Shown: piece after piece, positions 44,460 to 60,047 of the stretch
Numbering within the stretch: position 1 is the first letter of the stretch
How the letters are laid out: every line of letters begins with the position of its first letter
Source of the DNA: Mesohalobacter salilacus
GTDB lineage: Bacteria; Bacteroidota; Bacteroidia; Flavobacteriales; Flavobacteriaceae
Length of the DNA stretch: 64,000 nt
Assembly: GCA_003931895.1 (NCBI GenBank)
Contig: RRZV01000049.1
Location: 1 to 64,000 of the forward strand
Direction: 5' to 3'
Position numbers and translations under genes: made by a program
The notes under the pieces: model-generated
The model's input: only the letters and a program-made list of their open reading frames with translations
Databases searched by the model: none
Told to the model about the DNA's origin: nothing

Positions 44460-44963
44460 ATGAGTAATACAGGTGCTTATAGTCAAAAAAAATCTAAAGA
44501 CAAACACTGTAAAAAATGTGGCAATAAGGTAGTTGTGTATAAAAACTCAATTGCTGAAGACTTTGGTTGTTTTATTTGGAGAAACTCAAGACTTCATCTA
44601 GTTATATTTATTTCTGTAGTGGCTGGTTTAAGTTTTTTTAATACTGTTTTGCTTACAACCTACTGGAAAGAAAACAGAGATCTGCAATACAAAATTGAAG
44701 AATACATAGATGAAATAAAAGTTAATCGAAACAGTGAAGGCCTTTCATTGGCAAAGACAATTAGTCCTCAAGACTGTTATATAACGTATCAATTTCATCA
44801 AAAAGAACTTTATCAACAGTGGTTAGGCTATCAACCTTATACCCCAGCTTCTCGGTTATGTTCTTTTGCTTCTCAATCTTTTTTTCAAGGGAATGAATTT
44901 GATTATTTGAGTGAACCTGAAGCCAGCCTAACCAACCAGCCATCAATAAACTTAAAACTGTAA
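44460..44963 (+). CDS. Small membrane protein with CxxC motif
   Basis: This 167-residue frame opens the rightward early region. It has a CKKCGNK zinc-ribbon-like start (residues 17-23), one membrane helix (LHLVIFISVVAGLSFFNTVLL, about residues 46-66) and a short helical stretch. From about residue 100 it runs over the 3' end of the convergent gene and looks less protein-like, so the true product may be shorter or the overlap may be recent. Function unknown. Confidence 0.55.
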   Translation: MSNTGAYSQKKSKDKHCKKCGNKVVVYKNSIAEDFGCFIWRNSRLHLVIFISVVAGLSFFNTVLLTTYWKENRDLQYKIEEYIDEIKVNRNSEGLSLAKTISPQDCYITYQFHQKELYQQWLGYQPYTPASRLCSFASQSFFQGNEFDYLSEPEASLTNQPSINLKL

Positions 44964-45315
44964 GCCCTATGGTAATTATATTGTATTTAGTTAAAGGTGT
45001 TCTGTTTAAAGCCTTATATATTTTGTCGAAACCACCTTTGTCCAGTATTCTTTCGGTGTTTTCATTTTTACGAGCAAACACGGCATCATCTTTAAAAGAA
45101 CATTCACAGGCTTCATGTTCGGCTAGAATAGACAAGTATTTTTTAAACTCTTCAACAAAATCATATGTTTCCTCTATTTCTCCATACAAGTTGTGTTTGT
45201 ATCTAGGTAAATATCTCCCAAATATCAATACATCTGGTAATATAGTCTCTTTCTTCAAGCATTCTTTAAGTATAAAATCTAAAACAGGAATGTCTTTTTT
45301 ATCAAAACTAACCAT
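44761..45315 (-). CDS. Membrane protein with coiled-coil tail, accessory gene
   Basis: This 184-residue protein has a soluble N-terminal part (to about residue 105), one membrane helix (IITIGLTVLSLLMAGWLGWL) and a C-terminal coiled coil (IHSLEKKIEKQKNITEKL). It is transcribed against the early operon, as is usual for lysogeny-expressed accessory genes. It overlaps the convergent 44460 gene by about 200 bp. The family is unknown; a superinfection-exclusion role is only a guess. Confidence 0.6.
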   Translation of the reverse strand: MVSFDKKDIPVLDFILKECLKKETILPDVLIFGRYLPRYKHNLYGEIEETYDFVEEFKKYLSILAEHEACECSFKDDAVFARKNENTERILDKGGFDKIYKALNRTPLTKYNIITIGLTVLSLLMAGWLGWLQVHSNNQIHSLEKKIEKQKNITEKLGYKVDSLTTVDKVLFDEIDTLYNSLED

Positions 45316-45348
45316 TTAAAAAAATTTAAAACTAAAAGTATAAAATCT

Positions 45349-45597: not shown

Positions 45598-45936
45598 ATG
45601 TCAGATCAAAAAAAATCTTCAGTGAAAACCCAATATGCCATCATTAGAGGTCTTGGAAATTTGTATGGCAGAATTGTTAAGGCAGAAATTATTGAAGTTA
45701 TAGAAGAAGAGCGGATAGAGGTACAACTCCCAAATGGAGAAAGAAAGCATTTTGATTATGATACGGGGTTAGAAATTTTATCAAGAGGTATAGTCTGCGA
45801 TAAAGACAGTTATTTAGAAAAATTAAAAGTCTGTTACTCAATGTATCAGCTTGACCTAACCCACTACCATAGTTGGATAAACGCAAAAGAAATAAACCTA
45901 ATGGATTATCATTTGTATTTAAACAACATCTTCTAA
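45598..45936 (+). CDS. Early protein of unknown function
   Basis: This 112-residue protein has a beta-rich N-terminal domain (KTQYAIIRGLGNLYGRIVKAE, continuing past residue 30) and a helical aromatic C-terminus. I do not recognise it. Its stop overlaps the convergent nuclease-like gene by 18 bp. Confidence 0.55.
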   Translation: MSDQKKSSVKTQYAIIRGLGNLYGRIVKAEIIEVIEEERIEVQLPNGERKHFDYDTGLEILSRGIVCDKDSYLEKLKVCYSMYQLDLTHYHSWINAKEINLMDYHLYLNNIF

Positions 45937-46365
45937 AACCTTACTAATGTCCACATTAAAAACATCAAAATTAGAATTTGTTTTAGGCTTTGAAACATTC
46001 CTATTTTTAAGCCTATACAGTTTTTTAAATAAAATTTTGTTTGGGCTAAAAGCGATAACAATACCATTTAAAACATTTGGGTTTTTACTCATTAATTTTT
46101 CTAATTTTTTTAAATCAGAGTCAATATCCTTTAAATGGCAAATTTCAATATATGCAACAGGAACGTTGCTTTTTTTAGTTTGTTTTAATACAACGACATC
46201 AGGCACTTTACCAATATCATATTCAGGCAAAACTTTGTACCTGCTATATTTTTTCACAGTTTTGGTTTTATACATCAACGCATATAATATTTCAGCCAAA
46301 ATACTTTGGTGTAATAAAGTATTTCCAACGCCTTTCAAGCCTTTAGTTTCGATTTTAGACTTCAT
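45919..46365 (-). CDS. Putative PD-(D/E)XK-like nuclease
   Basis: This 148-residue protein has an order that fits a restriction-endonuclease-like core: helix (LLHQSILAEILYALMY), then PEYDIGKVPDVVVLKQ with the PD motif, then VAYIEICHLKD with an acidic residue on the next strand. The ATG at 46365 (MKSKIETKG) is preferred to one 48 bp upstream, whose extra residues look unlike the rest. It opposes the early operon, so it may be a defence or lysogeny-expressed gene. The plus-strand frame over it has no comparable pattern. Confidence 0.55.
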   Translation of the reverse strand: MKSKIETKGLKGVGNTLLHQSILAEILYALMYKTKTVKKYSRYKVLPEYDIGKVPDVVVLKQTKKSNVPVAYIEICHLKDIDSDLKKLEKLMSKNPNVLNGIVIAFSPNKILFKKLYRLKNRNVSKPKTNSNFDVFNVDISKVLEDVV

Positions 46366-46432
46366 AGAAAATAGTTTAAAAAGAAAATTATTTGATAAAG
46401 ATATTAAAACCATTCAACTATAAAATAGAATT

Positions 46433-51946: not shown

Positions 51947-52693
51947 ATGACTCACGGCAGTTTATTTAGTGGAATAGGTGGTTTTGATTTAGCTAGTAAA
52001 CAAGTAGGCTTTAAAAATATATTTCATTGTGAAATTATTGAATATAAACGAAAAACACTTATAAAAAATTTTCCAAACACAAAAACTTATGCAGACATAC
52101 AAAACTTTGAAGGTCAAAAATACAAAGATAAAATTGACATCCTTTCTGGAGGATTTCCATGTCAAGATGTTAGTATTGCTCAACAATCAAAAAAAATTAA
52201 CCAAAGAGACATTTCAGGAAAAAGAACTGGATTATGGCAAGAATATGCGAGAGTTATTCGGGAAATTGAACCTGGAATTGTCATCTTTGAAAACAGCCCA
52301 ATGCTACTTATTCGAGGATTTGAAAAAGTCTTATGCGACTTTCACAAGCTCGGGTATGATGTTGAATGGCGATGTTTTTTCGCTTCCGACTTCGGGTACC
52401 CCCATTTTCGGAAAAGACTTTATGGTGTTGCCTACTCCCGCTGCAAGCGATGGAAAAATACTATTAAAAAAGGTGGAGTCTTACAAAAAGTATTACCAAA
52501 AAAAACACCAAGACAAATCCCTTTATCAATTCCAATTAAACGGTTTAACGGCAATTCAAGCTATGAAGATGTACGAATGGATGATGGGTTTTCCAAAGAA
52601 CTGGATAAAAACTTTATACACGGATTTGGAAACGCAGTAATACCAGAAATACCCTATCAAATATTTTATAAATTAAAAAACCTTAAAACTTAA
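51947..52693 (+). CDS. DNA (cytosine-5) methyltransferase
   Basis: This 248-residue protein has the ordered C5-methyltransferase motifs: I (FSGIGGFD, residues 7-14), IV with the catalytic cysteine (GGFPCQD, about 68-74), VI (ENSPML, about 111-116), VIII (FGYPHFRKRLYGVAYS, about 145-160) and X (GFGNAVIP, about 229-236). The target-recognition region between VIII and X is very short, about 65 residues. No cognate endonuclease is adjacent, so it is probably an orphan phage methylase that protects against host restriction. Its 3' two-thirds also carries a second open frame with its own conserved-looking motifs. Confidence 0.88.
   Translation: MTHGSLFSGIGGFDLASKQVGFKNIFHCEIIEYKRKTLIKNFPNTKTYADIQNFEGQKYKDKIDILSGGFPCQDVSIAQQSKKINQRDISGKRTGLWQEYARVIREIEPGIVIFENSPMLLIRGFEKVLCDFHKLGYDVEWRCFFASDFGYPHFRKRLYGVAYSRCKRWKNTIKKGGVLQKVLPKKTPRQIPLSIPIKRFNGNSSYEDVRMDDGFSKELDKNFIHGFGNAVIPEIPYQIFYKLKNLKT
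52089..52640 (+). CDS. Overlapping +1-frame ORF with methylase-associated motifs
   Basis: This 183-codon frame lies wholly inside the methyltransferase gene in the +1 frame. Its product carries SLKTAQCYLFEDLKKSYATF, then SGMMLNG, then VLPTPAASDG and the ending YEWMMGFPKNW. As I recall, that order (SGxMxNG, LPTPxASD, WxMGFPxxW) typifies phage proteins or C-terminal regions associated with C5 methylases. Both frames look conserved at once. The start is uncertain (ATG at 52089, 52167 or 52245). Confidence 0.45.
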   Translation: MQTYKTLKVKNTKIKLTSFLEDFHVKMLVLLNNQKKLTKETFQEKELDYGKNMRELFGKLNLELSSLKTAQCYLFEDLKKSYATFTSSGMMLNGDVFSLPTSGTPIFGKDFMVLPTPAASDGKILLKKVESYKKYYQKKHQDKSLYQFQLNGLTAIQAMKMYEWMMGFPKNWIKTLYTDLETQ

Positions 52694-52802: not shown

Positions 52803-53026
52803 CTTGCTAGCTATGAGTAGTGCGACTTTGGAGCATTACTTATAGCGTGAGTTGTGCACCACAACTTTAAACCTTAAACTCATAAAACTTAAACTCATAA
52901 ACTAAAAACTACCTTAAATAATTCAAAACAACCTCAATTAAACCCAAAGTCTTTTAAAGTCTTAAACTTCAAAAAAACCATATCATAATTTAGCAATCGA
53001 AAGCAAGTTCATTGATAGGTTTAGGT
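52803..53026. other. Non-coding gap before the virion module
   Basis: About 220 bp without a gene. It contains a short direct repeat (CTTAAACTCATAAA, twice around 52872-52900). No consensus promoter was found, although a late promoter might be expected here. Confidence 0.4.
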
Positions 53027-54787
53027 ATGGACATAGATTTAGGTTTAAGAAGAAAGGTTGTAAAAAACTCTGAATTTGACAGTTTGATAGAAAAATCAAG
53101 CTGTCAATCTTCTTTTTTAGGTCAAGGCGATACATTTTTATCAATTCAATTGATAGCTGAATTAGCCAAAAAACATCGCAAACAAACCCAGAAATGGGCT
53201 AAAAGACTTAAAAAACCTACAACTCAACAAACTGTTAATGGTGATTATAAGTTTTTATATGATCACTTTCAGTATAAAGCTGATGCAGAAAAACAAAATC
53301 TTAAATCTCCCAAATGTGCATGGTCAAAAAGATTTGATGGTATTGATTGTAAAACGTATAGCCTCATAGCTTCAACGCTTTTACTTAATCAAAACATCAA
53401 TCACTATATCCGAAAAATCAAACAACCCGGATTTATTGAAGATCAATACACGCATGTATATGTTATAGTACCTAAAGATCAAAAAACAAACAAGCTTAAT
53501 AAAGGCTATTACGTTGTTGATGCAACAACGCATGACAACAAAGAGCCTTTATTTATTGAAAAATATGACGTTTTTATGGAAGCAATGCCACATTATGGAC
53601 TTAATGGATTAGCTATGAGCAATATAAGCCAAAGCATAAAAGCAATGGAAAAACTTGCAGATATTCTTAATGATGCTGGAGTTTTAAAATCCATTACTGA
53701 TGCTATGCTAATAAGGGTTAATAGGTTTGTTAACAAAGGCATTGATCCAGTTATTGCTATAAGCAGAAACGGAATTGTTATTGAAGGTCAACTTTTTAGG
53801 TTTCAACAACCAGGACAAAAAATAGAGATTCCAGAAATATTTGTCCAAACAAAATCTCAAGGTTTGCAAAGAGCTGTTAATTCAAGCTTGTCTAAAAACG
53901 CAGAATTTACTTCTACAAATGGAAATTCAGGTGGTGGAAGCATAGATTTTGGTAATGTATTTAATACATCAAACGACGATTGGTTTCAAACAGCCTTGTC
54001 TGATATAGGAGATTTTTTTGGAGGTATTTTTGGAGGTGGTTTTTATAAAGAAAATCATGTCAAAGAAAACGCTGAAAGACTTCACAATGAGCATAACAAA
54101 CTAGTTGATGAAATCAATAATTCACTGTCAAATCAAAACTTTAATATTTTCTCCCAAAAAATCGCAAGACTAAGACATATTTCAGAGCTTGTTGAAAAAG
54201 CATTTATAAAGAAAAAAAGCGAAGGCTGGAGTAACCAGTCAGAAAGCAATCTACAAGCATCAATTGATATTGCTAAAAGATACAACACCCAAATTAACAA
54301 GGCTATAGATGCTTACGTAAGTCAATTCTTTAATATTTCAGGTTCAGGAGGTAGTGTAAGCTTTAGCTCAGAAGGGTGGGAAAAGGAAAAGGGCTTTTTT
54401 GGGATGTTTTTAGGTAGTCCAGTTGTGTTTACAAAACAATATCAAAACCTACAACCAAAACAAACTAACATTCCTGCATTTAAAATTACTAAAAAGTTAA
54501 CTGAAGCAATTTTTCAAAAAAAGCAAGTTGATACAGGGAGCTTTTTGTCTGACTTAAAAAATATTGTCCTTCAGTTTTTAGGCAATGACAACAATAACAA
54601 TTCTAATAATCAAACTACCCCTAATAATAGTCATCAATCAACCGGTACAGTAAACACAAATTCACCATCTAAGGCTGGCTTTACACAAAATTTATTATTA
54701 GGCAGTTTAATAGCTGGCGGTTTATTTATAGGAATGCGAAAAATGGGTAAGAAAAATGGAAAGTTGCAAAACATTAAATCAAATTAA
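53027..54787 (+). CDS. Membrane protein with transglutaminase-like domain, putative virion protein
   Basis: This 586-residue protein has a papain/transglutaminase-like triad order in its N-terminal third: Cys in GIDCKTYSLIAS (residue 108), His in YTHVYVIV (143) and Asp in YYVVDATTH (165). A long helical middle follows. An Asn/Gln/Thr-rich stretch precedes a C-terminal membrane helix (LLLGSLIAGGLFIGM) and a basic tail. The TTG at 53012 is in frame, but the ATG at 53027 is preferred. It is the first gene of the late module. The enzyme activity is inferred only from motif order. Confidence 0.6.
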   Translation: MDIDLGLRRKVVKNSEFDSLIEKSSCQSSFLGQGDTFLSIQLIAELAKKHRKQTQKWAKRLKKPTTQQTVNGDYKFLYDHFQYKADAEKQNLKSPKCAWSKRFDGIDCKTYSLIASTLLLNQNINHYIRKIKQPGFIEDQYTHVYVIVPKDQKTNKLNKGYYVVDATTHDNKEPLFIEKYDVFMEAMPHYGLNGLAMSNISQSIKAMEKLADILNDAGVLKSITDAMLIRVNRFVNKGIDPVIAISRNGIVIEGQLFRFQQPGQKIEIPEIFVQTKSQGLQRAVNSSLSKNAEFTSTNGNSGGGSIDFGNVFNTSNDDWFQTALSDIGDFFGGIFGGGFYKENHVKENAERLHNEHNKLVDEINNSLSNQNFNIFSQKIARLRHISELVEKAFIKKKSEGWSNQSESNLQASIDIAKRYNTQINKAIDAYVSQFFNISGSGGSVSFSSEGWEKEKGFFGMFLGSPVVFTKQYQNLQPKQTNIPAFKITKKLTEAIFQKKQVDTGSFLSDLKNIVLQFLGNDNNNNSNNQTTPNNSHQSTGTVNTNSPSKAGFTQNLLLGSLIAGGLFIGMRKMGKKNGKLQNIKSN

Positions 54788-54788
54788 A

Positions 54789-55679
54789 ATGCAAACGGCA
54801 AGCAAAAAAAATTGTAAAGACAAAGGTTTCTTAGGTCGCATGTGGTGCAAAACAAAAAATTTTGTTGAAGATAACGCCGGAACTATTGTCGGTGGTTTAA
54901 TTGGTGGATTTGCTGGTGCATTAATTGGCAAAGGTATTGATAAATTTATTGTGCCTATGCTTTTTGACACAGCTCAAAGACTTAACATTCAATTAAATGA
55001 AGATTTAGCTTCTAATTTCTTACTTGAAGAATGGGCAGAAAACTTTATGGACGACTTAATCTTTAGTATTAACAAACCACTTATTCAAGCTAGTGATGAT
55101 GAATTAAAGTCAAAACAAATAATTGATCATTTAAACTCAGGATTATTTAAACTATCAGTTTTAAAAGCATACTACGATTTTAATGCTCAAACTAAAAAAC
55201 TTAAAGGAACACTTAAGGCTGTAGAGGAACAAAAAGCCGTGGCCGTTCAAGATGCAATTGTTAAAATAGTAGAGAGTTATAATGAAGCAGTAGAAGGGGT
55301 TAACAGCCCTTATGTGATGGCTGAAAAACCCTTTAAGCCTTCCAAGCAAAACAAAATATCTGGATTAAATCTTGACTGGAAGGGTGCAAGCGTTGATTCT
55401 AACCGCATACTTTATGTAAATAAAAACGCTAACAATACAGGAGCAACAGTAATTACTAATCCAGAAACGGGAGGCAACACTCCTGTTTCAATTGATCAAA
55501 ATCAAAACACAAATACTAACAATAACAGTTCTGGCACAACTAAAGAAACAAGCGATCAGGCTTTCTTTCCTACAAATCAGCCTACCGAAACAAATACTCA
55601 AAAAGAAGATAAAAACAAATATTGGTTAATCGGCGGGGCTTTAGTTTTAGCCGCACTAATATTTAGAGGTAAAAATTAA
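54789..55679 (+). CDS. Two-helix membrane protein, putative virion component
   Basis: This 296-residue protein has a glycine-rich hydrophobic segment near the N-terminus (AGTIVGGLIGGFAGALIGKG, about residues 29-48), a helical soluble middle, a long Asn/Thr/Gln-rich low-complexity linker (about 210-270) and a C-terminal helix (YWLIGGALVLAALIF). The linker plus C-terminal helix resembles the gene upstream. An ATG at 54756 overlaps that gene; 54789, 1 bp after its stop, is preferred. Confidence 0.6.
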   Translation: MQTASKKNCKDKGFLGRMWCKTKNFVEDNAGTIVGGLIGGFAGALIGKGIDKFIVPMLFDTAQRLNIQLNEDLASNFLLEEWAENFMDDLIFSINKPLIQASDDELKSKQIIDHLNSGLFKLSVLKAYYDFNAQTKKLKGTLKAVEEQKAVAVQDAIVKIVESYNEAVEGVNSPYVMAEKPFKPSKQNKISGLNLDWKGASVDSNRILYVNKNANNTGATVITNPETGGNTPVSIDQNQNTNTNNNSSGTTKETSDQAFFPTNQPTETNTQKEDKNKYWLIGGALVLAALIFRGKN

Positions 55680-55698
55680 TCAAAAACAGATAATAATC

Positions 55699-56190
55699 AT
55701 GGTCAAAACACCAACACTCAAAAATGTTACAGACACAGCCTTAGATGGCGTGACTTTAACTGGTGGAGCAATGTTAAGCAACGGTGTTGCTACGTTGATC
55801 CCGCAAGAACACGAAATGATTGGTAAAGGCATTTTCTCTGGACTTACAATCGTCGGAGCAAGTGCAATGAAAACAAAAGGAAACCAATTAGGAAAATCGA
55901 TAAAGCTATTGCTTCTCGGCATGGGTATCATGCAAGCAGCAAGTTTAGGTCAAATCGCACTTAAAAAAGTAATTGAACCAAAAACAGACCCATCAACAGT
56001 TGATAAAATTGTTGAGGGTATTGCAGGATTACGTGGATGTTCATGCAATGGCTTAAATGGCGAACTACCAAGACTGATGGCTACTTCTAACGTGCCACAA
56101 ACACAACTAAAAAACATTGAAATAGACTCAGAGTTTATTCCTAGTAAAGATGTTGTAGATGTAGAGCATGAGGAGCTTCCACTTATGTAA
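55699..56190 (+). CDS. Membrane protein, putative virion component
   Basis: This 163-residue protein has two hydrophobic stretches (GIFSGLTIVGASAM and SIKLLLLGMGIMQAASLG) in residues 44-86 and a soluble C-terminus with a CSC pair near residue 115. Not recognised. It lies 20 bp downstream of another membrane protein and just upstream of the capsid candidate. Confidence 0.6.
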   Translation: MVKTPTLKNVTDTALDGVTLTGGAMLSNGVATLIPQEHEMIGKGIFSGLTIVGASAMKTKGNQLGKSIKLLLLGMGIMQAASLGQIALKKVIEPKTDPSTVDKIVEGIAGLRGCSCNGLNGELPRLMATSNVPQTQLKNIEIDSEFIPSKDVVDVEHEELPLM

Positions 56191-56252
56191 TTAACCGAAA
56201 GAAAAAATAATCAACAACAATAATCAAAATCAATAATTAAAAAAAAAGAGAC

Positions 56253-56882
56253 ATGAAAACTAAGTTTCAATTAGCACAAGCATTTTTATTCGCTCTAGCT
56301 GCAGCGAGTGCATTTTCAAGCAGTTTAAATGATCTTGTTAATAGATCAAAAGGTCGTGACGTTGCAGAAACAACTCTTCAGAGTGATGAGTTATTTGCAC
56401 GAAGAGATGTGTCTGGACAAGGCGGAATCTTTGAATTTATTAACAATGAAGTTGACAAAGCTCAGGGGTTAGTAAATTTTGACAAGGGTAGATTAGCCCA
56501 AAACGAAGCTTTTATTTTTGATGCTATATCAATTTCTTTTGGAGAAGCAGATGCAGGAGATGTTACTGCTGGTGCGGTTGATTATACAGCCGATATGATA
56601 GCTGCTCTTAAAAATGCTGAGTTTGAAATCAAACAAAGTGGTAGAAAAGTTATAAGCCTTCCTGTAGCATCACTTTATAACCCTTATGTAGGATCAAGTG
56701 AAAAGGATAATTGGACAGAACTAGGAAACTTACATTACCTAGTTGATAACGAAGATTTTACTTGGAACATTAAATTTCCTAGTAACTTGTCTGTACCACA
56801 ATTTACGGGTAGTACTGGTTCAAAAAAGAGTTTTTTACAAGTAAGGCTAAGAGGCTACAGAACTTCTAAACGTTCAATTTAA
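56253..56882 (+). CDS. Candidate major capsid protein
   Basis: This 209-residue protein has a hydrophobic or helical N-terminus (LAQAFLFALAAASAFSSSL) and a mostly beta C-terminal domain: NEAFIFDAISISFGEADAG, AEFEIKQSGRKVISLPVAS, FTWNIKFPSN, SFLQVRLRGYRTSKR. The alternation suits a jelly-roll. It is the only gene in the module with a strong terminator right after it, fitting high expression. No HK97-fold signature is seen. The capsid call is inference; a signal-bearing surface protein is an alternative. Confidence 0.45.
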   Translation: MKTKFQLAQAFLFALAAASAFSSSLNDLVNRSKGRDVAETTLQSDELFARRDVSGQGGIFEFINNEVDKAQGLVNFDKGRLAQNEAFIFDAISISFGEADAGDVTAGAVDYTADMIAALKNAEFEIKQSGRKVISLPVASLYNPYVGSSEKDNWTELGNLHYLVDNEDFTWNIKFPSNLSVPQFTGSTGSKKSFLQVRLRGYRTSKRSI

Positions 56883-56905
56883 TAAAAGTAATTTTTTTTC
56901 ATAAC

Positions 56906-56945
56906 AAAAGCCACCAATACCAACCGTGTGTTGGTGGCTTTTTAA
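56906..56945 (+). terminator. Terminator after the capsid candidate
   Basis: AAAAGCCACCAA (56906-56917) pairs with TTGGTGGCTTTT (56931-56942), followed by a short A/T-rich tract. It lies 24 bp beyond the stop at 56882 and is the clearest intrinsic terminator in the element. Confidence 0.8.
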
Positions 56946-56955
56946 ATAAGATACT

Positions 56956-57315
56956 ATGGACAACTTAAGACTAAGTTCGGTAACTTTAAAAATACCAAGT
57001 GGTGAGAAAATATCAAACGAAGCTGAATTCGAAACCATTCATAACAAAATTGTAGGCTATTCAACTCACACAGTAAAAAAAGCAGACAACACATCTGTTA
57101 AGCTCACAATTAATGACAATGGGAATGAAATAAACAGACCTCACAATACAGCATTCTCTGAAACTTCGGGCAGATCTAGTTTTATGGATGCTTTAATCCC
57201 GACCCAAATCGACCAACCAGGACGACTAAGCGCTGTTGTTAAAACAAAACAAGCAGTTGCAAATGATGTAATTGTAGAAGTTTTAATAGCATCTCTTAAC
57301 AACAAAAATTGCTAA
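56956..57315 (+). CDS. Putative minor virion protein, beta-rich
   Basis: This 119-residue protein is beta-rich throughout (LRLSSVTLKIPSGEKIS at the start, ANDVIVEVLIASLN at the end). It starts 11 bp after the terminator and is followed directly by another small beta-rich protein. I do not recognise it. Position and composition suggest a capsid-associated role. Confidence 0.55.
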   Translation: MDNLRLSSVTLKIPSGEKISNEAEFETIHNKIVGYSTHTVKKADNTSVKLTINDNGNEINRPHNTAFSETSGRSSFMDALIPTQIDQPGRLSAVVKTKQAVANDVIVEVLIASLNNKNC

Positions 57316-57585
57316 ATGAAAGTCAAGTTAGGCATAACAATAATTTCTAAAAACACATCAGGTTTTCTTGTTAGTGGCATTAAACCATCACTTTTTAATG
57401 CAGGAAGCAACGATGTTGAAGTTTTAGAAAGAACATTAAAGCCTGGTCAAGATGCACCAATTGACTTTGGTGATCACGAAGTAGAACACGAAATTGATGT
57501 AGAGTTTAAAGGGACTGGCAAAAATAAACTAGTTGTTTATACAGGTATTCCGATAAAAGATTCTAGCAAAAATTGTGATGAGTAA
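57316..57585 (+). CDS. Small beta-rich protein, putative virion component
   Basis: This 89-residue protein starts immediately after the preceding stop (no gap). It reads as a beta sandwich: VKLGITIISKNTSGFLVSGI, then EHEIDVEFKGTGKNKLVVYT. No family is recognised. Its end overlaps the next gene. Confidence 0.55.
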   Translation: MKVKLGITIISKNTSGFLVSGIKPSLFNAGSNDVEVLERTLKPGQDAPIDFGDHEVEHEIDVEFKGTGKNKLVVYTGIPIKDSSKNCDE

Positions 57586-58390
57586 ATTAGAGCAAATACA
57601 GAAAGCATTAGACGAGTCAAGAGCTAATGTATTTATAAACGTATTGTGGCCAAAAACACATACTAAAATTGACTCTGCAAACAAGCAAAAAATTGAAAAC
57701 AAAGGTGGTCTCAAAACTTACTTTTTCGAGCTTCATAAAAAACATAATTTATCAAGTGTTGATGTTGAATTTAGAAAACCAAACGGTACATCTAGCAAAC
57801 CTTTTGGGCAAAGGCTAGAGTTAAATTTTAGTAAAAAAAATAAAGAAATGCCAAACAACGAAATCATTCAAAATCAAAGCCATACTCAAAATGTTCCAGA
57901 GGGATTAAATGGCCTAAATGGACTTAGTATGTATTTCGAAAAACTGAGGGATGAAGGAAAGGACTTTAAGCAAAAGTATGAAGCTTATGAAAAAGAAAAT
58001 AAGGAATTAAGAGATAAAGTAAACTCCATTCAGCGTAAATATGACTTGCTAGAATATGAAAATAAAAACCTTATTGAAAAAAACAAAGAAAAATCACCTA
58101 TTGATGGAGATACCATAAAGAAAATAGTGTTGCCATTAGCTCAACAGTATTTTCAAAGCAGGCAAGGCCTAAACGCCCCAAAAACCGAAAACAAATCTTT
58201 GTCCCAAAACCGTAAAGAGATCATCAACTTAACTAAAATGACAGAAGTAGATGAAAGTATCATTGACCGAATATATTTTGTATTTATTCAATACGCACAA
58301 GGGAATAACGAATTTGTACAAAAAATTGAAAAACTTATAAAAGATGAGCAAAACATTTCAAACAAAAATAACAGTCAAGGGCAGCAATAA
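57578..58390 (+). CDS. Coiled-coil protein of unknown function
   Basis: This 270-residue protein has a soluble N-terminal domain (about residues 1-80), a strong coiled coil (about 115-170: YEAYEKENKELRDKVNSIQ, then YDLLEYENKNLIEKN) and a helical C-terminus. The ATG at 57578 is chosen; a GTG one codon earlier is also in frame. It may be a scaffold or assembly protein given its place among virion candidates. Confidence 0.6.
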   Translation: MSKLEQIQKALDESRANVFINVLWPKTHTKIDSANKQKIENKGGLKTYFFELHKKHNLSSVDVEFRKPNGTSSKPFGQRLELNFSKKNKEMPNNEIIQNQSHTQNVPEGLNGLNGLSMYFEKLRDEGKDFKQKYEAYEKENKELRDKVNSIQRKYDLLEYENKNLIEKNKEKSPIDGDTIKKIVLPLAQQYFQSRQGLNAPKTENKSLSQNRKEIINLTKMTEVDESIIDRIYFVFIQYAQGNNEFVQKIEKLIKDEQNISNKNNSQGQQ

Positions 58391-58517
58391 CTTTGATTTA
58401 AAAGCAAGACAAGAAGCACTACAATTTTTAAACCAAGAAGCTTCTACGAGCGAATTAAAAAACTTAATAAGGCTTGCTAAAGACCCTACAATGAGAGAAA
58501 TGCTAAAAAACATGTAA
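58344..58517 (+). CDS. Small protein (57 residues) of unknown function
   Basis: ATG 58344 to TAA 58517 encodes a mostly helical product beginning MSKTFQTKITVKGSNNF and including LARQ-like and LKNLIRLAKDP helices. It overlaps the previous gene by 47 bp in another frame and ends 2 bp before the next ATG, so it fits the tight packing. Confidence 0.5.
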   Translation: MSKTFQTKITVKGSNNFDLKARQEALQFLNQEASTSELKNLIRLAKDPTMREMLKNM

Positions 58518-58519
58518 AA

Positions 58520-59122
58520 ATGAATAATAAAGGCTTAAAAAATCCAGCGGCAATAATAGCAGCATCAGAAGCATCAGACAAGCTGAGCAAAATTTCTGAT
58601 AGTGCTAAAAAAACCGTTTCGGATATCAACAGCAAGACCAACAACGCTCTAGCGTGGGTTGCCGCTATTGGTGCCGCTGGTGTTGTCTATTTTATTTTTA
58701 CACAGTTTAATAAAATTAACAAAGTTCAAAATGAAGTAGGAAACACAATAGGTGACGCTATTGATAATATAAAAGAAGGAGCTTCAATAGAAGGTGGTGG
58801 TAGTGGTGCTATTACTGGATCTTCAGATTTAGGAAATATAACCATAACCGAAGTTCAAGCGCAATCTAAGGCAAGCCAATTGATGGAGGCAATGGATAGG
58901 CTAGGAACTGACTTTGATAGAATAAAAAATGTATTAAATGGCATTACCCCAGCCGATTTTGTTTTGATAGCAGACAAGTTTGGCTTGGTAAGATATAATC
59001 TAACTGGACGAGCATTTTGGCCATATCCAGAAAGAAATTTACTTGAGTGGTTAGCCTTAGAGCTAAATGAAGATGAAATGAATGAGCTTAGGCAACTGCA
59101 CCCTAAAATATTTGGCACATGA
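58520..59122 (+). CDS. Membrane protein with annexin-like repeat
   Basis: This 200-residue protein has one membrane helix (LAWVAAIGAAGVVYFIFTQF, about residues 44-63), a glycine-rich linker, and a C-terminal helical domain: LMEAMDRLGTDFDRIKNVLN, then a second helix pair LEWLALELNEDEMNEL. The GTD-type loop resembles an annexin repeat, seen in some Bacteroidetes mobile-element proteins as I recall. Calcium or membrane binding is conceivable but unproven. Confidence 0.55.
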   Translation: MNNKGLKNPAAIIAASEASDKLSKISDSAKKTVSDINSKTNNALAWVAAIGAAGVVYFIFTQFNKINKVQNEVGNTIGDAIDNIKEGASIEGGGSGAITGSSDLGNITITEVQAQSKASQLMEAMDRLGTDFDRIKNVLNGITPADFVLIADKFGLVRYNLTGRAFWPYPERNLLEWLALELNEDEMNELRQLHPKIFGT

Positions 59123-59457
59123 AGAAAATAATAGTGAAAGATCAAAGCGGAGAAACATTAGAAAACGCCGAAATTAAAATAGGTAATAAAGGGTTTTTAA
59201 CTAATAAGTTTGGAACAGCTATAATAGATGCTAATCCACAAGATTTAGTACTGGTTTCGTTTGTTGGTAAAGAAGATTTTATGTCAACATTTGCTAATTT
59301 ACCAAATACTGTTGTTTTAAAAAACGAGAGTTTACAGGAGGTTACCGTGTTTTCTAACAAAAAGAAAAGCTATTTCAAACCCATAGCAATTGGCACATTT
59401 GCAACAATTTTAGGATTTATAATACTAAAAAACCAACCCAAAAAAATAACTTTATAA
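59119..59457 (+). CDS. CarboxypepD_reg-like domain with C-terminal membrane anchor
   Basis: This 112-residue protein has an N-terminal beta-sandwich typical of CarboxypepD_reg-like domains (VKDQSGETLENAEIKIGNKG, LTNKFGTAII, ending VVLKNESLQEV) and a C-terminal membrane helix (IGTFATILGFIIL) with a basic end. It overlaps the previous gene by ATGA and the next by one base. A membrane-anchored spike-like structural protein is a reasonable guess. Confidence 0.6.
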   Translation: MKKIIVKDQSGETLENAEIKIGNKGFLTNKFGTAIIDANPQDLVLVSFVGKEDFMSTFANLPNTVVLKNESLQEVTVFSNKKKSYFKPIAIGTFATILGFIILKNQPKKITL

Positions 59458-60047
59458 TGGCTTCATTTTCAACATATATACCACTATTGTTAAACGTAGA
59501 AGGGGGTTTTCAAAACCATCCAGAGGATCAGGGCAACTATAATAGTTTGGGAGAATTAATAGGTACAAACCATGGTATTAGTACAAGGCTTTACGAAAAA
59601 ATTATAGGCAGACCACCTAAAGAGTGTGATATTAAATGTATCACTAAACAAGAAGCTATAAGCATATACAAAAATGAATTTTGGAATAAATTAAGAGCTG
59701 ATGAGATAAACAGTCAAGCAGTTGCAAACACTGTAGTTGATCATCATGTTAATAGTGGCCGAGGAGTGATTTTGGCTCAGCAAGTTTTAAATCAAAATTT
59801 TGGTTTTGAATTAACTAAAGATAACATCTTAGGAAATAACACATTAAATGCGCTGAATACAATAAGTGAGATAAAATTTGTTAAGGAGTATAATTCAGCC
59901 AGAGAGGATTTTTATAAAGCACTAAATAATAACACAGCTTTTATTAATGGCTGGATTAATAGAATAAAAAAATTTGCTATAAACAATAGTGAAAGCATTT
60001 CTGTTATGGCACTAGTAATGGCTTTAAGCACTTTTTTTTTGTCTTAA
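59457..60047 (+). CDS. GH108 N-acetylmuramidase, endolysin
   Basis: This 196-residue peptidoglycan hydrolase of the GH108 family has the catalytic glutamate in the N-terminal NVEGGFQNHPED (Glu15). GTNHGISTRLYEKI and the C-terminal putative peptidoglycan-binding part follow. A C-terminal hydrophobic helix (ISVMALVMALSTFFLS) may tether it to membrane, which is unusual for a soluble endolysin and would suit a virion-associated lysin. It starts the fibre and lysis block. Confidence 0.85.
   Translation: MASFSTYIPLLLNVEGGFQNHPEDQGNYNSLGELIGTNHGISTRLYEKIIGRPPKECDIKCITKQEAISIYKNEFWNKLRADEINSQAVANTVVDHHVNSGRGVILAQQVLNQNFGFELTKDNILGNNTLNALNTISEIKFVKEYNSAREDFYKALNNNTAFINGWINRIKKFAINNSESISVMALVMALSTFFLS

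Follow-up and report, generated by a model that had tools for sequence, protein, structure and literature searches.

A double-coded phage-type gene that very probably encodes both chains of a C5-cytosine DNA methyltransferase

Layout of the locus

The DNA analyzed here (the window) is a stretch of 64,000 nucleotides from contig RRZV01000049.1 of Mesohalobacter salilacus, and the parts of the methyltransferase gene described below lie on its forward strand. Frame A (51947 to 52693; 248 amino acids) is a C5-cytosine methyltransferase with motifs I to VIII and motif X, without a canonical motif IX, and it would correspond to the alpha chain of the enzyme proposed in this study. Frame B (52089 to 52640; 183 amino acids from the first ATG), the putative beta chain, is a gene lying within A, in the +1 register, and contains the sequence identified as motif IX. 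The first-pass annotation had placed two open reading frames at these coordinates and had quoted pairs of motifs from them; both frames turned out to be coding, with B conserved, and each quoted pair is identical DNA in two reading frames.

In frame A, motif I (FSGIGG; 51965 to 51982), motif IV (PCQ, with the catalytic Cys; 52157 to 52165), motif VI (ENS, the canonical form being ENV; 52289 to 52297), and motif VIII (HFRKR; 52403 to 52417) were recognized by sequence in the order of the C5-methyltransferase family (PF00145) and are named as is usual for these enzymes. The LPTP-to-IX segment that follows (52428 to 52568), functionally frame B according to its selection pattern, is a probable target-recognition region. 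It is succeeded by motif IX (MYEWMMGFPKNWI; 52569 to 52607), assigned to frame B from the identity between the window and the related loci L068 and L086 and from an hhalign match to the motif IX of single-chain enzymes, and then by motif X (GNAVIP; 52628 to 52645), recognized by sequence in frame A. Motifs IX and X are thus not found in one chain, X being in A and IX in B.

When each frame was searched separately, as had been proposed with the first-pass annotation, A matched PF00145 (E value of 3.9e-41, covering only profile positions 2 to 178 of 324) and phrog_363 (E value of 5.6e-54), while B matched phrog_1008 (E value of 3.4e-14), had phage homologues by tblastn, and matched no Pfam or NCBIfam family. 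Catalytic motifs are absent from frame B of the window. The annotation had credited frame A with motifs I to X, which was borne out for I to VIII and for X and not for IX; the PF00145 match ends at position 178, a canonical motif IX was not found in frame A, and the corresponding stretch reads MYEWMMGFPKNW in frame B. Furthermore, the longest +1 open run in A extends over 191 codons, compared to a mean of 64.5 in 2,000 synonymous shuffles of A (p = 0.0005). Among 198 genomes of the same phylum, window B had no close relatives besides itself.

The surroundings contain phage-like genes with few known families (53012 to 60047), in particular a transglutaminase-like protein with a score below the cut-off (53012 to 54787), a glycine-zipper protein just under the cut-off (54756 to 55679), and a GH108 lysozyme-type protein (59457 to 60047). 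No restriction endonuclease was recognized among 13 neighboring proteins of the window by comparison with PHROGs and Pfam (E ≤ 0.01), most of them having no family assignment. Elsewhere in the window, a long reverse-strand open reading frame (44761 to 45315) overlaps the forward-strand ones at 44460 to 44963 and 44969 to 45319, and a second (45919 to 46413, reverse strand) overlaps the one at 45947 to 46423 (forward strand). On another contig of the same genome (C41, 1427 to 3509), a different C5-methyltransferase was recovered as a two-piece match with a TAG within the second piece.

Occurrence of the nested arrangement and its start signals

At E ≤ 0.01, a tblastn search with window B retrieved 34 phage records, and in 20 of them the match spans at least 80% of B. 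All of the 59 aligned B proteins match PHROG 1008, and their comparison with Pfam and NCBIfam gave two chance-level matches of single members each (E values of 0.015 to 0.079). Nine of the 34 records were examined (L002 to L010), and in eight of them B is an open +1 frame of the methyltransferase; the ninth, Vibrio phage S4-7 (L007), has a conventional enzyme read in one frame, with its motif IX in A and only a short B-like stretch. The annotation of the eight nested records lists only A in seven cases and only B in one, namely, Pseudomonas phage phPA-G, where B is annotated as hypothetical. A different B protein matched 116 phage records, six of which were examined as well. The nested phage records examined have hosts in several bacterial phyla, belonging to Bacteroides, Porphyromonas, Vibrio, Mycobacterium, Pseudomonas, Acinetobacter, Microcystis, and Paenibacillus, and the two Escherichia coli prophage relatives that we examined are both nested. 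In the prophage of E. coli strain ECCTRSRTH03 (L521, 995 to 2170), RefSeq gives two incomplete pseudogene pieces, and A is open throughout with B open beside it.

A broader sample of 380 sites, whose counts include near-duplicates, was assembled from three motif-IX DNA patterns in viral contigs (at least 120 matches each) and from a longer pattern that gave 20 matches in genome contigs. Among the matches listed, the catalytic N terminus lies in the -1 frame at 329 of the 380 motif-IX sites, with that frame open through IX, and at 321 of those 329 the motif X pattern occurs in frame A with IX in +1. All motifs share one frame at six listed sites, and 18 show other arrangements: frame A is closed before IX in eight (some of them with both IX and X in +1), motifs I to VIII and IX are in one frame and X in another in six, and the relation is +2 in four. 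No catalytic N terminus was found at the remaining 27 listed sites, 23 of which are open reading frames running off the sequence end; the other four are short open reading frames at L077 (11 amino acids), L105 (65 amino acids), and L346 (33 amino acids), plus L333, an open reading frame of 159 amino acids with the motif about 800 nucleotides from the contig start. In the set selected by EWMMGFP-coding DNA, 115 of the 120 listed contigs hold both A and B, and the sites without a catalytic N terminus comprise five at a sequence end and two chance matches in short open reading frames. A free-standing B family was also considered, and none occurs among the 380 listed motif-IX sites, those without an N terminus being mostly at sequence ends.

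Loci were also selected by frame A, taking the best 80 of at least 600 matches for one query and all 23 for the other, which gave 97 distinct loci after the removal of six duplicates. The first-pass annotation had proposed testing whether both frames are open at homologous loci; at 95 of these 97, the B family is present as an overlapping +1 frame (75/75 and 20/22 for the two queries). Outside these sets, at L394, a locus in a bacterial genome of the window's class (1405 to 2412), A is open, without a recognizable motif I, and the B-family +1 pieces are broken by two stops; L394 is probably a decayed copy. The two exceptions among the 97 are L614, which is frameshifted, and L626, at a contig end. 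The former (1501 to 2290) is mycobacteriophage-like, 96% identical to the query over the best segment, and contains one extra base, with the frames swapping midgene. A simple pattern detected a motif-IX-like string in 72 of these 95 B proteins; variants of the motif occur, as in L609. In the B proteins of L365, L366, and L402, which belong to a third clade, several WPTPxAxD-like repeats occur between the positions of motifs VIII and IX, and these might be repeated recognition units.

In 216 distinct nested A genes, the +1 open run exceeds chance in 193 at p ≤ 0.05 and in 144 at p ≤ 0.005. The controls were 32 enzyme open reading frames from L007 and the genome searches, and three of them also have a +1 run beyond chance (p ≤ 0.05): L370, which is the window gene, L393, which proved to be nested, and L007. 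The interrupted locus L394 is also one of the 32 controls. We found no earlier description of the arrangement in phages in the titles and abstract openings of open-licence PMC papers, which is weak evidence of absence.

Start signals were surveyed in 250 distinct nested genes in which motif I could be located (48 of 298 were dropped). The start codon of B lies 4 nucleotides after that of A in 122 of the 250, in 117 cases as NTGAATG, and a Shine-Dalgarno-like string, loosely defined and counted without a control, accompanies 101 of the 122 tandem starts. Where B starts at an internal ATG, a match of at least 4 nucleotides to AAGGAGGT precedes 64 of 106 such codons, compared to 216 of 1,098 control ATGs lying out of frame (p = 6e-18; 46 genes were excluded because motif I could not be located), and the entire AAGGAGGT is present at two loci with an internal B start. 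In the window, a Shine-Dalgarno match is absent both before the B ATG and before the A start. An ATG at the position of the window's B start, 142 nucleotides into A, occurs also in L002, L003, and L010.

Selection on the two frames and the reading of the gene

The per-frame measurement of constraint that had been proposed with the first-pass annotation revealed selection on both frames. Isolated differences were counted in 73 disjoint pairs of loci with nucleotide identities of 67 to 97%. Changes that alter A and B together occurred at a rate of 0.0057, compared to 0.0459 when A alone is altered, 0.0505 when B alone is altered, and 0.185 when both proteins stay the same. Over the overlap, NN/NS is 0.124 (0.106 to 0.144) for B and NN/SN is 0.113 (0.095 to 0.132) for A. 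The +2 frame was tried as a control and discarded; since the +1 frame is itself constrained, +2 is not a true null, and neighboring genes were taken instead (33 gene pairs from 20 locus pairs), with an NN/NS of 0.593 (0.377 to 0.924) and an SN/SS of 1.3 (0.93 to 2.0). Changes that are silent in A and alter B are suppressed in the overlap, with an SN/SS of 0.27 (0.24 to 0.32). Moreover, in the 13 pairs that have a 5' part coding for A only, changes at A positions 1, 2, and 3 number 91, 50, and 237 there, compared to 477, 239, and 440 in the overlap.

A regional analysis could be made for the 54 of 73 pairs that had landmarks, the other 19 being dropped. The dominant frame of selection switches from A to B and back to A along the gene. 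Over motifs I to VIII, omega for A is 0.069, and after IX, around motif X, it is 0.051. In the LPTP-to-IX segment, NN/NS is 0.094 and omega for A is 0.65 (0.46 to 0.91), with 656, 54, and 64 changes at A positions 1, 2, and 3, a distribution which implies that frame B, and not A, is read there. The motif IX region has an NN/NS of 0.024; since the sampling patterns fix most IX residues, the IX figures of this first set are partly built in, which does not apply to the segment ahead of IX or to the A-selected set. The A-selected set agrees (37 pairs, 36 by region), with an NN/NS of 0.127 from VIII to IX and 112, 19, and 45 changes at the three positions, and the third clade agrees less sharply (47 pairs, 41 by region; VIII-to-IX NN/NS of 0.186 and NN/SN of 0.307). 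Over motifs I to VIII, the NN/NS intervals of 0.21 to 0.40 in the first set, 0.28 to 0.46 in the A-selected set, and 0.25 to 0.44 in the third clade overlap that of the null (0.38 to 0.92), so the constraint on B in that region rests on SN/SS. In particular, the first 200 nucleotides of the overlap give an NN/NS of 0.31 (0.19 to 0.46), again overlapping the null, and an SN/SS of 0.24 (0.19 to 0.30), and since the latter compares with 1.3 in the null, B is taken to be constrained there.

The window itself follows this pattern in comparison with L068. In the I-to-VIII part of the overlap, 77 of 112 residues of A and 62 of 111 of B are identical; in the LPTP-to-IX segment the values are 34 of 47 for A and 40 of 47 for B, with 12, 3, and 4 changes at the A positions; and in motif IX they are 11 of 13 for A and 13 of 13 for B, the latter also against L086. 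The comparisons with L086 and L523 agree with that pattern. Against the more distant L002, B is no better conserved than A in the LPTP-to-IX segment (10 of 41 versus 13 of 44).

It could be argued that frame B is untranslated and that its conservation merely echoes that of frame A. The motifs of A do force some motifs of B, and the single-frame enzyme of L007 yields short B-like +1 peptides, within a +1 run of 121 codons that is itself beyond its shuffles; B-like stretches are likewise present in the +1 frame of the single-chain genes L021 and L344. However, an echo of A would not account for the overall suppression of SN changes relative to the null, for the position pattern of the LPTP-to-IX segment, or for the excess of Shine-Dalgarno matches before internal B starts, and we regard this explanation as extremely unlikely.

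The identity of the conserved EWMMGFP stretch of B was approached through five single-chain enzymes (L021, L044, L049, and L063 in viral contigs and L344 in a genome contig), in which EWMMGFPxGW stands directly before X in the same frame as I to VIII. The C terminus of B aligns with the motif IX stretch of these enzymes (hhalign probability of 97.3, E value of 2.2e-11), and they in turn align with 15 canonical enzymes (14 from bacterial genomes and that of phage L007) with a probability of 99.9 and with IX and X in register. The B profile matches the canonical set directly with a probability of only 0.7, too weak alone, so the assignment relies on a two-step homology with the single-chain enzymes as the bridge; by this homology, the EWMMGFP stretch of B is methyltransferase motif IX. 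Judging from the selection pattern, B probably carries the target-recognition region as well. Structure prediction was less informative: AlphaFold2 applied to B alone (52 sequences) gave a mean pLDDT of 58 and a pTM of 0.31, a Foldseek search with this model found no match at E ≤ 0.001, and a search of solved structures with the B profile found none at E ≤ 10. In an AlphaFold2-type model of L287, a natural relative with one open reading frame, the catalytic part is confident and the B-derived part mostly is not.

The first-pass annotation had regarded B as a methylase-associated family; its residence on methyltransferase DNA stands, and its separateness does not, as B carries motif IX. The same observation bears on the view that B is an independent phage protein (a regulator, an anti-restriction protein, or an accessory protein) overprinted on a complete methyltransferase. 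B is indeed a conserved family with a PHROG of its own, and selection does act on both frames, as such a view would have it. Nevertheless, the product of an independent overprinted gene should be unrelated to the function of the host gene, and motif IX of B is homologous to that of the single-chain enzymes. A complete enzyme in A is also at variance with the PF00145 match that stops short of IX, with the strict motif IX pattern being found in none of the 216 nested A genes (a pattern that caught only 8 of the 32 controls), and with A being nearly unconstrained from LPTP to IX. This view is therefore very unlikely.

The switch of the dominant frame from A to B and back could also reflect a single chain made by two programmed frameshifts, the first taking ribosomes from A into B ahead of the LPTP segment and the second returning them to A beyond IX, and some loci (L043, L072, L280, L287, and L288) do have I to VIII and IX in one open reading frame and X in another frame. 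Against this, A remains open across the B-coded segment at 329 of the 337 listed sites, compared to 7% expected from synonymous resampling of B (200 genes, the third clade left out), and the open frame of B, judged by SN/SS, is already constrained far upstream of where a switch would occur. The persistence of an open A, together with the B start signals in many relatives, indicates that an uninterrupted A chain is needed and that B has a start of its own in those relatives, neither of which a double programmed frameshift would account for. Two opposite programmed shifts would moreover be required, and we consider such a mechanism very unlikely.

We thus propose, with high confidence, that the two chains of a heterodimeric C5-cytosine DNA methyltransferase are both products of one double-coded gene, a proposal drawn from comparative sequence analysis. 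Ribosomes initiating at the A start would produce the alpha chain, with the cofactor-binding and catalytic domain (motifs I to VIII) and motif X, joined by a linker that would be the LPTP-to-IX stretch translated in frame A. Those initiating at a second start (the tandem NTGAATG or, in other members, an internal ATG with a Shine-Dalgarno sequence) would read the +1 frame and produce the beta chain, which would supply the target-recognition region and motif IX; in the window, initiation would presumably take place at the B start described above. The two chains may then assemble into the usual two-domain fold, giving an enzyme that presumably modifies phage DNA against host restriction.

Origin of the nested gene and comparison with known systems

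The first-pass annotation had suggested that the whole B family arose by overprinting on methylases. An overprinting origin is supported, not for the whole family and in both directions, the IX stretch being older in B. Since the single-chain relatives keep IX with I to VIII, B would be the overprinted frame over motifs I to VIII and X, and A the overprinted one from LPTP to IX; we therefore favor a reciprocal overprinting of a split enzyme. Relative to the single-chain genes, in which IX is in the frame of I to VIII, the nested genes require the frame to move by +1 ahead of IX and to revert ahead of X. It is possible to hypothesize that two frameshifts in opposite directions turned a single-chain enzyme into the nested form; refusion of nested into single-chain genes is possible too, L021 and L344 having B-like +1 stretches. 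In L226, L232, L287, and L288, the frame differs downstream of a glycine-coding G-rich tract just after motif VIII, which shifts IX or X relative to I to VIII and could reflect phase variation or an assembly error.

Taken as a whole, it seems reasonably probable that phage C5-methyltransferases include a very large family in which most of the gene is double-coded, read from A to B to A with mutually overprinted frames, and that this family is among the largest same-strand full overlaps known in prokaryotes, M.EcoHK31I being a single characterized relative. Gene finders and curated families mostly recognize one frame, with the result that one half of an enzyme common in phages would be missed or called hypothetical, and because the probable DNA-recognition region lies in B, specificities inferred from frame A alone would use the wrong frame. 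The family would also offer a testable example of extensive same-strand overprinting that nature has replicated many times, and its relatives with one chain or with a different split could reveal how a gene comes to be divided between frames.

Existing records capture parts of this arrangement. PHROG family 1008 is labelled "DNA methyltransferase," though window B is without catalytic motifs. In Paenibacillus phage Diva (gp49/gp50), a nested +1 gene is annotated within the methyltransferase and carries the note "g49 internal gene," and this internal gene is named DNA methyltransferase with no role stated; in the main text of a paper on 48 P. larvae phages, as far as the available portion of it goes, the word "internal" does not occur (PMC6070908). 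The single-chain phage-type enzymes (L021, L044, L049, L063, and L344) resemble the window in the type of motif IX (EWMMGFPxGW), in motif X, and in a homologous catalytic domain, and differ from it in having I to VIII, IX, and X all in one frame.

Among two-chain enzymes, M.AquI is described in a passage of PMC3404938 as two chains that form one enzyme, split in the variable region. A comparable split is seen in phages Catdawg (gp6/gp5; L362) and ArV1 (067a/067b; L364), where I to VIII are followed by IX and X in the next chain, shifted by +1, and where the chains are annotated as two methylases or methyltransferases. In the window, by contrast, motif X remains with I to VIII in the first chain, and the gene for the second chain lies inside the first gene instead of following it.

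The closest parallel is M.EcoHK31I, a restriction-modification enzyme that recognizes YGGCCR; Lee, Kam, and Shaw are said to have reported in 1995 that its small chain is encoded within the larger gene in a different frame. The putative small chain of the window is likewise nested in the large gene in another frame. Sections of PMC3404938 assign motifs I to VIII and X to the larger chain of M.EcoHK31I and motif IX only to the smaller, and an excerpt of PMC3439449 terms the enzyme naturally split; as far as these parts of the papers go, the window shows the same division (I to VIII and X in the large chain, IX in the small one). The former source also notes that inactive fragments of other C5-methyltransferases can reassemble into an active enzyme (PMC3404938). 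Two differences stand out: the predicted target-recognition domain of M.EcoHK31I was placed in the larger chain (PMC3404938), whereas the LPTP-to-IX segment is selected in frame B here, and M.EcoHK31I is a single restriction-modification enzyme, whereas the nested arrangement described in this study is common to many phages.
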